A stretch of 22,655 nucleotides of DNA from a virus. Both the position numbers and the translations under genes were made by a program. The stretch is from positions 1-22,655 of IMG/VR virus record IMGVR_UViG_3300046095_000293, one strand, 5' to 3'. The notes under the pieces are model-generated. The model saw nothing but the letters and a program-made list of their open reading frames with translations. It was not told where the DNA came from and did no database searches. Each line of letters starts with the position of its first letter. Within the stretch, counting starts at the first letter, position 1. Shown one piece after another: positions 460-17,126 of this stretch.

Positions 460-2123
460 GTCTCTTTATTTAAAAGTAATGCTAAATCGTCTTGTAAACT
501 CTTCATAAATGGGTTTTCTTCTTGATCATCACCGCCTTGATCTTCGTAAGGATTTTGATCATCTCCTTCTTCTGCAGCTTGATTACTCTCTTCTTGGCCT
601 TGTTGTGCCATTCCTTTAGCTTGTAGGAAAGTTGGATTAAGTACTACATCGCCATTTTCAATAGCAGGTAAATTCCTTTTCGCCCTCATCTCGTTGAGTG
701 TCATTATGTTGCTCACTAGCTTGATGTCGCGCTCTAATGCAAGTTCTTCGTCCTCTTCATCATCTATGCCAACGAACTTCAATTCATACCTAGGATCGAG
801 TGGTTGTATTACATATTTGTTTAGCCACTTCTCTGTTTTTTTGATTAGTGGTTTCAGTCCTTTAGACTTGCTGTATTGTAGTTTTTCTTTGGTTCCACCA
901 TCTCCCCCAAGACCACTTGGAGCTGCAGTTCCTTGCATTGGGAACCCTACTTCTGCAGGGTCAATCTTGTACATTGCGCACGAGATCTTGATCAAAAACT
1001 CTTGGAATTTAGCAAATTCCATATCTTTATTGTTCTGTCCTGTATTTATGAAGTCAAGCTTGTCGGCGTTAATCATTGGTATTTTATGCATATTCATGAC
1101 TCCTGACACTTGAGCCGTCCACTGTCTTCTGAAATCTTCAACTGTATTTGGATTGATGTTTCCTGAGTATTTCAAGATACCTTTAGGAGCTGATCCTACT
1201 CGGAAGAAGTTAGCGTTATAGCTGTCTGCATTCAGTATAGCAGTCACTGTTTGTATCATATCTTCAAGCTCACTTCGACCGTAGCCGTTAGTGTAGATGT
1301 TGCTTGATGGATTTCTTGTGCCAAAGCATAATTCCCAAGGGTAGAACTCTGCTATAACTCTCGCATCAATTACTTGAACGTATGATGGAGCGTATCCGCT
1401 TATTAGCACTTCGTTTTTAGAGTTGTCTTCTTCGTACGAGTCTGCTATTCTAAACGTCGCAGCATCTGTTGCGAAGAATTCGACTGGTTGACCTCCCCTA
1501 TTGCGAGGAACTTCAAACGTCGCTTGATCTAATGTTAATGAATCGTCTATTATCTTGCGTACAAAGTCGTCAAAGTCGTCAGCGTGCCAAGTGTTTTGAA
1601 TTGTACCACATTGCATCACAAACGCCATTAACTGCTCTATAGTTGCCTCTTCTTCTTTGGTTAATTTCTTTGTATTCGACGTTTCTTTGAATAGATATCC
1701 CTCTTTCTTTTGAATGATGAATCCAACTCCACTTTTACTGCTTTTAGGGGTGCAGAACGCTGACACTTGCTCTTTTCTTGTTTCAATAATTGATCGAACA
1801 ATATGTGTGCGAGACATAGCTCTTAACATTTCGTACGATATATTGAATGGCTTGTGCTTGTATCCTAAGGCACTTGATAAGTCGTTGGGATCTACAAGAA
1901 TGGATTTGAAGTCAATATCTTCTCTCGTTTTAATTGATTTGAGATATGTTTGAGCCTTCATAATCTCATTGACATCTGTCGAGTTGAGAGCTTTCTCTAT
2001 AGCAAGCTGTTGTTGTATCGTAGCAGCTTTGGAGAGATATATGGCTTGATCTAAATCTAATGGCTTTGGAACCATTAGATTAGATGTAACGCCTCTTCTA
2101 GTATGTATTTTGTTCTTTGCCAA
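447..2123 (-). CDS. Phage portal protein (HK97-type fold)
   Basis: The portal forms the dodecameric ring at the capsid vertex through which DNA is packaged and to which the tail attaches. The 558-residue length suits the family. Seen in the sequence: a mixed alpha/beta core, a central segment typical of portal stem regions (YGRSELEDMIQTVTAIL, about residues 280-300), a GNINPNTVEDFRRQW segment, and a helical stretch after an AEVGFP motif. The C-terminal tail is very acidic and Gln-rich (about residues 510-540). The start MAKNKIHTRR gives a basic N-terminus. It lies 28 bases after the 250-residue gene and about 11 kb from TerL, although the two are usually neighbours. Family assignment is by recognition of pattern, not by search. 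Confidence 0.82.
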   Translation of the reverse strand: MAKNKIHTRRGVTSNLMVPKPLDLDQAIYLSKAATIQQQLAIEKALNSTDVNEIMKAQTYLKSIKTREDIDFKSILVDPNDLSSALGYKHKPFNISYEMLRAMSRTHIVRSIIETRKEQVSAFCTPKSSKSGVGFIIQKKEGYLFKETSNTKKLTKEEEATIEQLMAFVMQCGTIQNTWHADDFDDFVRKIIDDSLTLDQATFEVPRNRGGQPVEFFATDAATFRIADSYEEDNSKNEVLISGYAPSYVQVIDARVIAEFYPWELCFGTRNPSSNIYTNGYGRSELEDMIQTVTAILNADSYNANFFRVGSAPKGILKYSGNINPNTVEDFRRQWTAQVSGVMNMHKIPMINADKLDFINTGQNNKDMEFAKFQEFLIKISCAMYKIDPAEVGFPMQGTAAPSGLGGDGGTKEKLQYSKSKGLKPLIKKTEKWLNKYVIQPLDPRYELKFVGIDDEEDEELALERDIKLVSNIMTLNEMRAKRNLPAIENGDVVLNPTFLQAKGMAQQGQEESNQAAEEGDDQNPYEDQGGDDQEENPFMKSLQDDLALLLNKETWSN

Positions 2124-13051: not shown

Positions 13052-14503
13052 CTACACAAACGAGTAATCAGGACCATCGTTAAATAGTAAGTCATTGATA
13101 GCCATCACTGTTAAGTCGGTCGCCTCATCGTGAGATCCATTAGGGAACGTTGATACTTTCTCGATGTAATTCACTATATAAACTCCATCTACTAGTCGCA
13201 CTCTTCTCCCCTCAATAGTAGGGGCAACACTATTCGCTCTCGTTAACTTGTCGTCTTTTGGAGGTATGCCTTCTACTACATTCATCTGCGTCATTGCTCT
13301 TAATTGTTGTACAACTGACAGACCACTTGCTTTAGGTTCGATCACAATTCGACTGCGATATGAGTATTGGAATCTCATTACGTACTCTTGAATGAATTTG
13401 ATCAAACTAGGGAAATCCAACCATACCTCTGTAAAGTCAAGAATGTAGATGTAGTTATCTTGCCTAAATGCTGCCAATATTCCTGTGGGGTCATTTGTGG
13501 TCTTCTCAGTATATGCTCCATCGACGTAGAAGTGTACTGGTTCATTCTCTGTATCTCTTCTTAGAATTAGTGGCGATATGATATCAAACCAATTTCGTTT
13601 CCATATTCCTCCTTCTAACGGAGCAGGGCTTTGATCGTACTGACCACCATAGCCTCGTTCTCCTAACGTTTTTCTGAATCCTGATAACGTTTTAGCACTT
13701 AGCCTAATTGGATCGAGCAGACCGTCGATATACTGTTCAGCATATTCTGGCGGTTCAATCTTTTCACTTATAGTTGCAGGTAAACAGATATGCAAATAGT
13801 CCTCTCTATTATTCTTGAGCAAGTATCCAGTCAAGTCATCCTCGTGCAGTCTCTGCATAATAATGATTCTCACCCCAAGGTTGATTGGAGTTAAACGATT
13901 GTATAATGCTCGAGTATAGTAGTCGATTGTGCTTTGTCTGTTGATTGCGCTTTCAGATGTTTTTGGATTCTGTGGATCATCGACAATAATAACAACACCT
14001 TTGTGACCAGTAATGTTACTTCCGGTAGTCTTACTTAATCTAAAACCACCTTTGTCGTTCATAAAGTATCCCTTTGAATTGGCATCTTTACGGATCTGGA
14101 ACTTATCTCCAAACAGCTCTTGAAACTCTGGACTGTTGATAATGTCTTTTGAATACTGTGCATTTAACAATGAAAGGTCCTCGTCAAACGATATCGAAAT
14201 CATTGGTAGCGTAGCGTCCTTAATCCACATCCAAGGTAGTAGGAATACACTTGTGATCAGCGATTTCGACGAACGAGGAGGAATGTTTACAATGATATCT
14301 TGTTCTTTCTCCTCCTTCCTTATGATTCTTTCGACCTCTTTTTGATACAAATCACAAAGCAATTCTATGTGAAAATTGACCTCAAACTTTTCATTAGGGT
14401 ACAATATACTAAAACACCACTTTGCAAACTGATAGTAGCTTTTCGTAAAGATTTCTCTTTTCAAAGCTACCTCTAACTTTCTATCTATCTGTATATCAGT
14501 CAT
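13052..14503 (-). CDS. terL: Phage terminase, large subunit (TerL)
   Basis: TerL is the packaging motor: an ATPase that pumps DNA through the portal and a nuclease that cuts the concatemer. The 483 residues show a Walker A-like PPRSSKS (75-81), Walker B VVIIVDD (170-176), coupling motif IIMQRLHEDD (214-223) and an RNase H-like nuclease domain with D328 (YVDGAYT), E389 (IVIEPKASG) and D459 or D463 (SHDEATD). The length is typical. The start MTDIQIDRKL lies 16 bases after the zinc-ribbon gene. TerS-like and small helical genes follow, whereas portal is about 11 kb further on, an unusual separation. Confidence 0.95.
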   Translation of the reverse strand: MTDIQIDRKLEVALKREIFTKSYYQFAKWCFSILYPNEKFEVNFHIELLCDLYQKEVERIIRKEEKEQDIIVNIPPRSSKSLITSVFLLPWMWIKDATLPMISISFDEDLSLLNAQYSKDIINSPEFQELFGDKFQIRKDANSKGYFMNDKGGFRLSKTTGSNITGHKGVVIIVDDPQNPKTSESAINRQSTIDYYTRALYNRLTPINLGVRIIIMQRLHEDDLTGYLLKNNREDYLHICLPATISEKIEPPEYAEQYIDGLLDPIRLSAKTLSGFRKTLGERGYGGQYDQSPAPLEGGIWKRNWFDIISPLILRRDTENEPVHFYVDGAYTEKTTNDPTGILAAFRQDNYIYILDFTEVWLDFPSLIKFIQEYVMRFQYSYRSRIVIEPKASGLSVVQQLRAMTQMNVVEGIPPKDDKLTRANSVAPTIEGRRVRLVDGVYIVNYIEKVSTFPNGSHDEATDLTVMAINDLLFNDGPDYSFV

Positions 14504-16119: not shown

Positions 16120-16216
16120 TGGAAGAGAGAGGAATCGAACCTCTGATCTCGCTCATTATCTCCTTATCATTCCGCAAGGCATGCTCGTGCTTTCCCCACC
16201 CTAAGCTATCTCTCCC
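16120..16216 (-). tRNA. tRNA-like element with G3-U70 pair and abnormal anticodon arm
   Basis: Minus strand: acceptor GGGAGAG (16216-16210) pairs fully with CTCTTCC (16127-16121), with G-U at position 3-70, the alanine identity pair. The T arm AGAGG-TTCGATT-CCTCT is perfect. The D arm TAGCTTAGGGTGGGGAAAGC is canonical, with T8, A9 and a GCTT/AAGC stem, but there is one extra A before T8. Between the D and T arms lie 44 bases, far more than usual for class I. The best pairing I find is CGAGCAT with ATGAGCG across tandem A-G mismatches, enclosing an extended hairpin. No proper seven-base anticodon loop is seen; CTTGCGG would read as UGC (Ala). CCA is not encoded. It may be a decayed tRNA-Ala or a specialised tRNA-like RNA. 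Confidence 0.5.
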
Positions 16217-16248
16217 ATTAGGGACATTTTCGCTGTCCCAAGTCTCGT

Positions 16249-16287
16249 TTATGCAGCCACTTCTAAAGCAGGTGCAGAAAAGATGTT
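16249..16287 (-). other. tmRNA tag-peptide reading frame
   Basis: Within the coding piece the frame AAC-ATC through GCT-GCA-TAA reads NIFSAPALEVAA then stop. An Ala-Leu near the end and a terminal -VAA match the hydrophobic C-termini of known tags (for example -ALAA or -AVAA), which the host ClpXP and related proteases recognise. The exact resume codon is uncertain: ATT or GTT one or two codons earlier is also possible. The stop codon falls in the loop of a P5-like stem, as in other tmRNAs. Confidence 0.7.
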
Positions 16288-16360
16288 AATAACCTTTGGA
16301 GTTATCGTGTACTATCGCCTATTTAACTCATTGGTGCTGAAATCAAAACCAGTCACCCCC

Positions 16361-16479
16361 GTGTGCCCGACATTTAACGACCTCGAAGCAACAGTCGTTT
16401 GGGGTCGATAGAATATCAAACTACCGACAAATCCACCACTCTGTTCCGTGTTGACGTTTACAGAGAACCCTAAGACTCG
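16361..16479 (-). other. Intervening transcribed segment of the permuted tmRNA, hairpin-rich
   Basis: The 119 nt joining the acceptor and coding pieces carries no ORF. It can form three local hairpins: CTCTGT/ACAGAG (loop 15), GTCGGTAG/CTATCGAC (8 bp with one G-U, loop TTTGATATT) and AACGAC/GTCGTT. In permuted tmRNAs this segment is removed by RNase P at the 5' end of GGGGGTG and by 3' processing after the discriminator base. The structure here suggests folding that assists processing or a retained function. Confidence 0.6.
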
Positions 16480-16663
16480 TGGAGGTGCTCGGAATCGAAC
16501 CGAGGTCTTTCAACTAATTTGTCAACCTGACAGCGAATAGTATATTTAGAAAGACAAAGTTGCTGTGTCACACCTTATTGTAATGTAAGGGCGTCCACCC
16601 ATTCCGTATTTGTTGACCGACACTTGTTTCGCTTTGTCTTTTTTGATTTCAATGAACGTTTTT

Positions 16664-16712: not shown

Positions 16713-17126
16713 CTAGAATGGGGTATCGTGTTGATCTAATTGTAGTGGCTTGACTGTAACTACTTCAAACTCACTTTCGCCCCTTTCGTTTAATTGCTTC
16801 CATCGCTTGTATTTGCGTGTATTCTCTGCGTTAGTTAGCAATTGTAAATTATCTTCAATGTATCCTAATGTTTCGTCTTTGCGATCTACGTGATAGCACG
16901 TACTACTCCTCCCTCTTTTAGCAATATACTCAACTTTAATGCAAAATGCTGTAAAGTATTCAAGTGTGATTGTAAATAACTTTCCTCTCGCTTTGGCGTG
17001 CCCTTTCAATCTGTAGTATGCTACTTTGATTGGGTACTTAGCTTCATATCTATGGTTTTTGCAATTATTGCATATCTTTCTTCCCTTTGCTGGTGGAGCT
17101 GTATTGCAGTCGATACACTTACTCAT
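16713..17126 (-). CDS. HNH endonuclease with N-terminal zinc ribbon (137 aa)
   Basis: Residues C4, C7, C19 and C22 form a short zinc ribbon. The C-terminal half has an HNH-type core: CYHVDRKDETLGYIEDNLQL with H79, D81 and N93, then LLTNAENTRKYKRW with N99 and N102. This is the degenerate His-x-Asp ... Asn form common in phage homing or packaging-associated HNH proteins. It overlaps the TerS-like gene by 8 bases, and HNH proteins next to terminases can help cut packaged DNA. A homing role is the alternative. It is the last gene before the tmRNA promoter. Confidence 0.75.
   Translation of the reverse strand: MSKCIDCNTAPPAKGRKICNNCKNHRYEAKYPIKVAYYRLKGHAKARGKLFTITLEYFTAFCIKVEYIAKRGRSSTCYHVDRKDETLGYIEDNLQLLTNAENTRKYKRWKQLNERGESEFEVVTVKPLQLDQHDTPF

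Follow-up and report, generated by a model that had tools for sequence, protein, structure and literature searches.

The permuted tmRNA locus

The entire 22.6 kb IMG/VR record IMGVR_UViG_3300046095_000293 (22,655 nucleotides, hereafter the window) has been analysed. On its minus strand it very probably carries a working circularly permuted (two-piece) transfer-messenger RNA (tmRNA) gene of a Bacteroidota-infecting phage, as judged from the sequence and its relatives. The features are as follows; contig L123 and phage MA9V-3 are two of those relatives.

16481..16542, minus strand: acceptor (3′ tRNA-like) piece as far as the distal P2 strand (RF04321 match, covariation, cognate duplex)
16480, minus strand: discriminator A73, then CGA (from the sequence; CCA is not encoded)
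16361..16479, minus strand: intervening segment of ~119 nt, expected to be excised (spacer comparison, pairing analysis)
16217..16360, minus strand: coding piece (5′ tRNA-like and mRNA-like; RF04321 match, homologues)
16249..16299, minus strand: tag reading frame PKVINIFSAPALEVAA, aligned with the tags AKVINLFTPQMRFAA of L123 and GNVIDINKYVAKLEVAA* of MA9V-3
16221..16248, minus strand: conserved 3′ element, ACGAGACTT and then the hairpin GGGACA-GCGAAAA-TGTCCC (16239-16221; z-score -2.49)
16120..16215, minus strand: tRNA-like element, degenerate, immediately following the hairpin (RF00005, 28.3 bits, below the cut-off of 29)
16713..17126, minus strand: endonuclease VII-like gene directly upstream of the tmRNA (phrog_3322/phrog_1035; 55% identity to MA9V-3)
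13052..14503, minus strand: large terminase (phrog_38), the query for kin phages

The acceptor piece comes first, followed by the spacer and then the coding piece, i.e. the gene is permuted. The acceptor piece contains the T-arm CTCGG-TTCGATT-CCGAG, separated by GAC from the proximal strand of P2. The coding piece begins with the acceptor strand GGGGGTG, and continues through the D region, the P2 strands (16342-16336 and 16318-16310) and the tag frame to the 3′ hairpin. In the acceptor stem GGGGGTG (16360-16354) is paired with CACCTCC (16487-16481) at 7/7 positions, including G3-U70. Proximal P2 is formed by TTTCAGC (16342-16336) and GTTGAAA (16514-16508), and distal P2 by GCGATAGTA (16318-16310) and TACTATTCGC (16542-16533) with a single bulged T. 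All of these stems, G3-U70 included, had been named in a first-pass annotation, and each is confirmed in its place. T-arm, GAC and D region are present with P2 occupying the position of the anticodon arm, which is lacking, and the acceptor stem is of the alanine type with G3-U70 and A73; both are characteristic of tmRNA. Since CCA is not encoded after A73, the RNA would have to be trimmed at its 3′ end and given a CCA.

The tag frame (16299-16249) has the codons CCA AAG GTT ATT AAC ATC TTT TCT GCA CCT GCT TTA GAA GTG GCT GCA TAA. It is preceded by GATAACT, as in the relatives, so that resume signal, frame and stop are all present. The first-pass annotation had only the ALEVAA-stop end of PKVINIFSAPALEVAA*, and that end is correct.

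RF04321, the Rfam model of permuted tmRNA, matches the window at 16538-16249 (minus strand) from the first to the last model position with 48.7 bits (gathering cut-off 47 bits). The E-value is 5.6e-7 across 4227 families, and 1.3e-10 for the single family in this record. This full-length match above the cut-off upholds the original proposal of a phage-encoded permuted tmRNA with the acceptor piece first. The other models named with that proposal fall below their cut-offs: RF01849, RF01850 and RF01851 give nothing at gathering level in the 14 phages compared below, RF01850 (beta_tmRNA) reaching a partial match of 25.2 bits in the window against a cut-off of 84, and the gene finder ARAGORN makes no call there. 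The standard one-piece model RF00023 has no match in the window, L123 or MA9V-3.

Related phage genes and covariation

Because the score of the window lies barely above the cut-off, kin phages were sought. Terminase identity to the window is 83% for L123, 77% for MA9V-3 and 52% for contig L124. MA9V-3 is an isolated lytic Chryseobacterium phage and the nearest isolate to the window, which agrees with the host group assigned previously. Permuted tmRNAs are found at the same place in L123 (RF04321 63 bits, ARAGORN tag AKVINLFTPQMRFAA) and MA9V-3 (64.7 bits, tag GNVIDINKYVAKLEVAA), while the tmRNA of L124 is one-piece (78.4 bits, tag GKQINFRPSFSPMRFAA*). The gene order of MA9V-3 is that of the window, comprising a UvrD helicase, a 161-aa gene, the endonuclease VII-like gene, the tmRNA and the terminase; the endonuclease VII-like gene is the constant upstream neighbour in the window, L123 and MA9V-3. 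The MA9V-3 gene is already annotated as SsrA (GenBank PV245944.1; PMC13120357), with the permuted form unmentioned. The earlier remark that no case was described in this host group needs amending to that extent. A BLASTN search of phage records with the tmRNA region of L123 returned tRNAs only. The annotation of a 'ClpX' in MA9V-3 (L286; 14939-15778, minus strand) is doubtful, as Pfam gives generic AAA domains only; a link between this protein and the tag was dropped on that ground, and because it has no match to the window protein compared. Elsewhere in the window there are an HNH gene (9839-9222, minus strand) and a gene whose product has a domain like acyl carrier protein (PF00550, phrog_5934; 15731-15393, minus strand), the latter lying downstream of the tmRNA by a few hundred bases.

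IMG/VR was scanned with patterns describing a permuted gene that lacks an encoded CCA, which yielded 10 distinct phage examples (L204, L205, L287, L290, L291, L293, L294, L295, L296 and L297), together with near-copies of L287 (L288, L289 and L292). The window is not a lone case but belongs to a group whose other distinct members number at least 13, in dissimilar Bacteroidota phages. For the contigs checked, the nearest isolates are Prevotella Lak phages in the case of L205, Tenacibaculum phage JQ for L288 and Bacteroides phages DAC/SJC for L291, so that Bacteroidota hosts are likely for the phages found by pattern. D-region spacing and the missing CCA are fixed by the patterns and hence not counted for these phages; CCA is also not encoded in L123, MA9V-3 and L300 (a locus in a host genome, described below), which were not selected for that trait. 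G3-U70 is present in 14/14 loci, being pattern-fixed in ten but not in the window, L123, MA9V-3 or L300. The tag frame is open and ends with a stop in all 14, most ending in AA-stop; the ARAGORN tag reading of L293 appears shifted, and by eye it reads GKVIQMFAQPVRLAA*. All 14 loci pass RF04321, the relatives with 55-68 bits, and ARAGORN reports a permuted tmRNA in L123, MA9V-3 and every further pattern-scan locus except L294. The Bacteroidota -7 promoter motif TAnnTTTG occurs in some members only, and not in the window. A pattern of the T-arm only was too general for finding members and was kept as a comparison set; among its viral contigs (L001-L120) ARAGORN reports 34 permuted and 16 standard tmRNAs.

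The host chromosomes differ from the phages. A one-piece tmRNA match is present in 61/61 Bacteroidota genomes and exceeds the cut-off in 60 of them, in keeping with the one-piece ssrA that had been stated for these chromosomes. A permuted match occurs in 1/296 Bacteroidota genomes (L300), amid phage-type genes and tRNAs, and that genome also holds its own one-piece gene. As the sole permuted match sits in phage DNA and the hosts are one-piece, the permuted form belongs to the phages here.

The 14 phage sequences were compared in a gap-free alignment of 61 columns. T-stem and acceptor stem are paired in 100% of cells. Changes on both sides are observed in 12/19 pairs of P1, P2 and the T-stem, a number reached by 0/500 shuffles, and controls in which the structure was slid score far below the true pairing. 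The most variable columns, in P2 and the T-stem, are not fixed by the search patterns. The refutation tests of the first-pass annotation that lie within reach of computation are passed. Cognate pieces pair at -22.8 kcal/mol and swapped pieces at -17.5 (0/200000 permutations), the proximal 14 nt giving -7.0 for cognate and -3.8 for swapped combinations. P2 of the window is unlike that of L123 at many positions yet pairs, and its cognate combination ranks 1 of 14.

The tag stop is directly followed by an ACGARACTTG-like motif and a hairpin with a GCGAAA-type loop in the window, L123, L204, L205, L294 and L296; L300 shares the hairpin only. In the one-piece genes inspected, 30 from hosts and 3 from phages, neither was seen behind the tag stop. 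In L204, L205, L294 and L296 the hairpin is followed by a T run, as in a terminator, while a tRNA-like element takes its place in the window and in L123. The element of L123 is a tRNA at 635-708 (plus strand, 44.5 bits) with an anticodon loop apparently of 8 nt (tRNA-??? (gaaa) in ARAGORN). In its counterpart in the window, the anticodon region has either disappeared or been enlarged. The element may be retained to direct processing rather than to serve as a tRNA, and RNase P cutting at it may generate the coding piece's 3′ end.

Proposed function and alternative readings

A single transcript would contain acceptor piece, spacer and coding piece. Host RNase P would cut ahead of GGGGG (16360), which is the expected origin of the 5′ end of the coding piece; its 3′ end is placed from the sequence. 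A tRNA 3′-processing nuclease would cut after A73 (16480), with CCA supplied by the CCA-adding enzyme. The spacer, whose folding is no better than that of shuffled sequences, would be lost, leaving two pieces that acceptor stem and P2 hold together. Host alanyl-tRNA synthetase would charge the RNA via G3-U70. No smpB gene was found in any of 12 phage records, of which that of MA9V-3 is complete, so that host SmpB would be needed for delivery of the charged RNA. The RNA would then free ribosomes stalled on non-stop mRNA and add a phage-specific tag. This tag, with VAA at its end, would probably be recognized by host ClpXP-type proteases. During infection ribosomes could in this way be kept free while mRNA is broken down. 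Rescue and tagging dependent on host SmpB is the likely function, and the simplest account given G3-U70, the open tag and the kept pairing. That the phage retargets the tag during infection, as suggested at the outset, is speculation.

The host already possesses its own ssrA, and the blocking of a host tmRNA is reported for DS6A (PMC11915505). The phage tmRNA might accordingly be thought mainly to compete with or block host tmRNA instead of performing full tagging. A decoy alone would need no tag, whereas open frames with a stop are found in 14/14 loci, mostly with AA-stop, and the frame is kept open in both the window and L123 despite an in-frame length change; we regard a blocker as improbable.

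Several properties of the locus speak against a working gene in the window, and could be explained if this copy were a decaying pseudogene among functional relatives. Its RF04321 score is the lowest of the 14 (48.7 against 47) and ARAGORN is silent. The resume codon is CCA, where the relatives have GGC, GGA or GCA, the spacer is the longest of the 14 (range 41-118 nt, counted between CTCCAC and GGGG), and the adjoining tRNA is degenerate. P2 is moreover imperfect in several of the phages, with 72% of cells paired in a fixed register, partly owing to bulges. In the window, however, acceptor stem and T-stem are fully paired, the tag frame is intact, and P2 has diverged from L123 while keeping its pairing, the cognate combination ranking first of 14. 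Decay is therefore a poor explanation, about as unlikely as a blocker. Much less credible still is that the element is not a phage gene but an attP remnant of prophage integration into host ssrA. While tmRNA genes are common integration sites, this reading is already largely refuted by the presence of both halves in permuted order with a tag. Besides, the Bacteroidota genomes contain no permuted ssrA of their own (the single match in 296 is in phage DNA), MA9V-3 is reported to be lytic, and no integrase family was matched among the window proteins scanned. A working permuted tmRNA remains by far the best reading of the locus.

Origin and relation to known tmRNAs

Phage-encoded two-piece tmRNA is in itself not new: 53 of 133 unique phage tmRNAs are two-piece, nearly all from aquatic phages (PMC9004378). 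Those of OM43 phage Melnitz and pelagiphages are likewise phage-encoded, but are of the alphaproteobacterial type, in other hosts and with a glutamine-riboswitch link (PMC9004378). No article text was found describing permuted tmRNA in Bacteroidota phages, a negative that does not extend to the supplementary phage lists of PMC9004378 and PMC11915505, and the present group, without encoded CCA and with mostly Gly-start tags, is not described in searchable papers.

The permuted tmRNA of Alphaproteobacteria (RF01849; Caulobacter type) has the same gene order, a tag, and two pieces held together through acceptor stem and P2. It differs in its RF04321 scores (seven loci 130-149 bits and an eighth 95.5, compared with 48-68 in the phages here), in encoding CCA (7/8 loci), in its T-loops (such as GGCGGTA/GGCAGTA rather than TTCGANN) and in its ANDN... 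tags. The tags of the phages here mostly start with G, the exceptions being A in L123 and P in the window. CCA-encoding IMG/VR phages and the betaproteobacterial (RF01850) and cyanobacterial (RF01851) types share gene order and tRNA-like core with the window group. The CCA-encoding and RF01850 types differ by the low RF01850 score of the window, by the tags, which in viral contigs with permuted CCA-encoding tmRNAs mostly start with A (as in eight alpha loci), and, within limits, by the tree.

The tRNA-like cores closest in the tree are those of the one-piece tmRNAs of Bacteroidota phages (L124, Cellulophaga phi38:1 and Prevotella Lak-A1, all of which reach the RF00023 cut-off) and chromosomes. 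CCA is not encoded in these three phage genes or in most hosts, and the L124 tag ends in MRFAA, the same as L123, while the tag of MA9V-3 (PV245944.1) ends in LEVAA like that of the window. One-piece forms differ in their standard gene order and, in hosts, short tags (GENNYALAA, ANDYSYAMAA and similar). Of these phages, phi38:1 and Lak-A1 are isolated or complete. The tag reading of the phi38:1 gene (26803-27164) is an unusual one of 22 aa, AQIEANMEAVNAILNLEVAVGV, and the Lak-A1 gene (223026-223421) has no ARAGORN call. A comparison of synteny near the T4-like portal gene between Lak-A1 (one-piece) and L205 (permuted) was abandoned, as the portal alone matched and the order differs.

In a tree based upon 99 columns, with cyanobacterial rows left out, 14/14 phage rows group with the one-piece genes of Bacteroidota phages and of a few hosts, apart from 8/9 CCA-encoding viral rows. 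Placing all permuted rows in a single clade is rejected (approximately unbiased (AU) test, p 0.002; p 0.036 when only the four rows obtained without DNA patterns are used), while a single clade of the phage rows is not (p 0.26). When acceptor and D region are omitted the signal fades (p 0.05 to 0.36). Tags, missing CCA, tree and AU test together favour, but do not prove, an origin separate from the CCA-encoding permuted lineage, so the independent evolution offered in the first-pass annotation is favoured subject to that loss of signal.

Three bacterial lineages, and mitochondria, are known to have permuted tmRNA genes, and the way in which permutation begins is an open question. It is conceivable, though somewhat doubtful as a whole, that the permuted gene represents a fourth lineage, derived within Bacteroidota phages from a one-piece tmRNA of phage or Bacteroidota origin, with both forms persisting in related phages, and that on the branch of the window a tRNA-like element replaced the terminator as the signal for cutting the 3′ end. 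Since permuted and one-piece tmRNAs occur in related phage genomes, the permutation step could be traced, and one member of the group, MA9V-3, can be grown in the laboratory. ARAGORN overlooks some phage tmRNAs of this kind. To the cargo that Bacteroidota phages bring into the cell would be added a ribosome-rescue RNA with its own tags.
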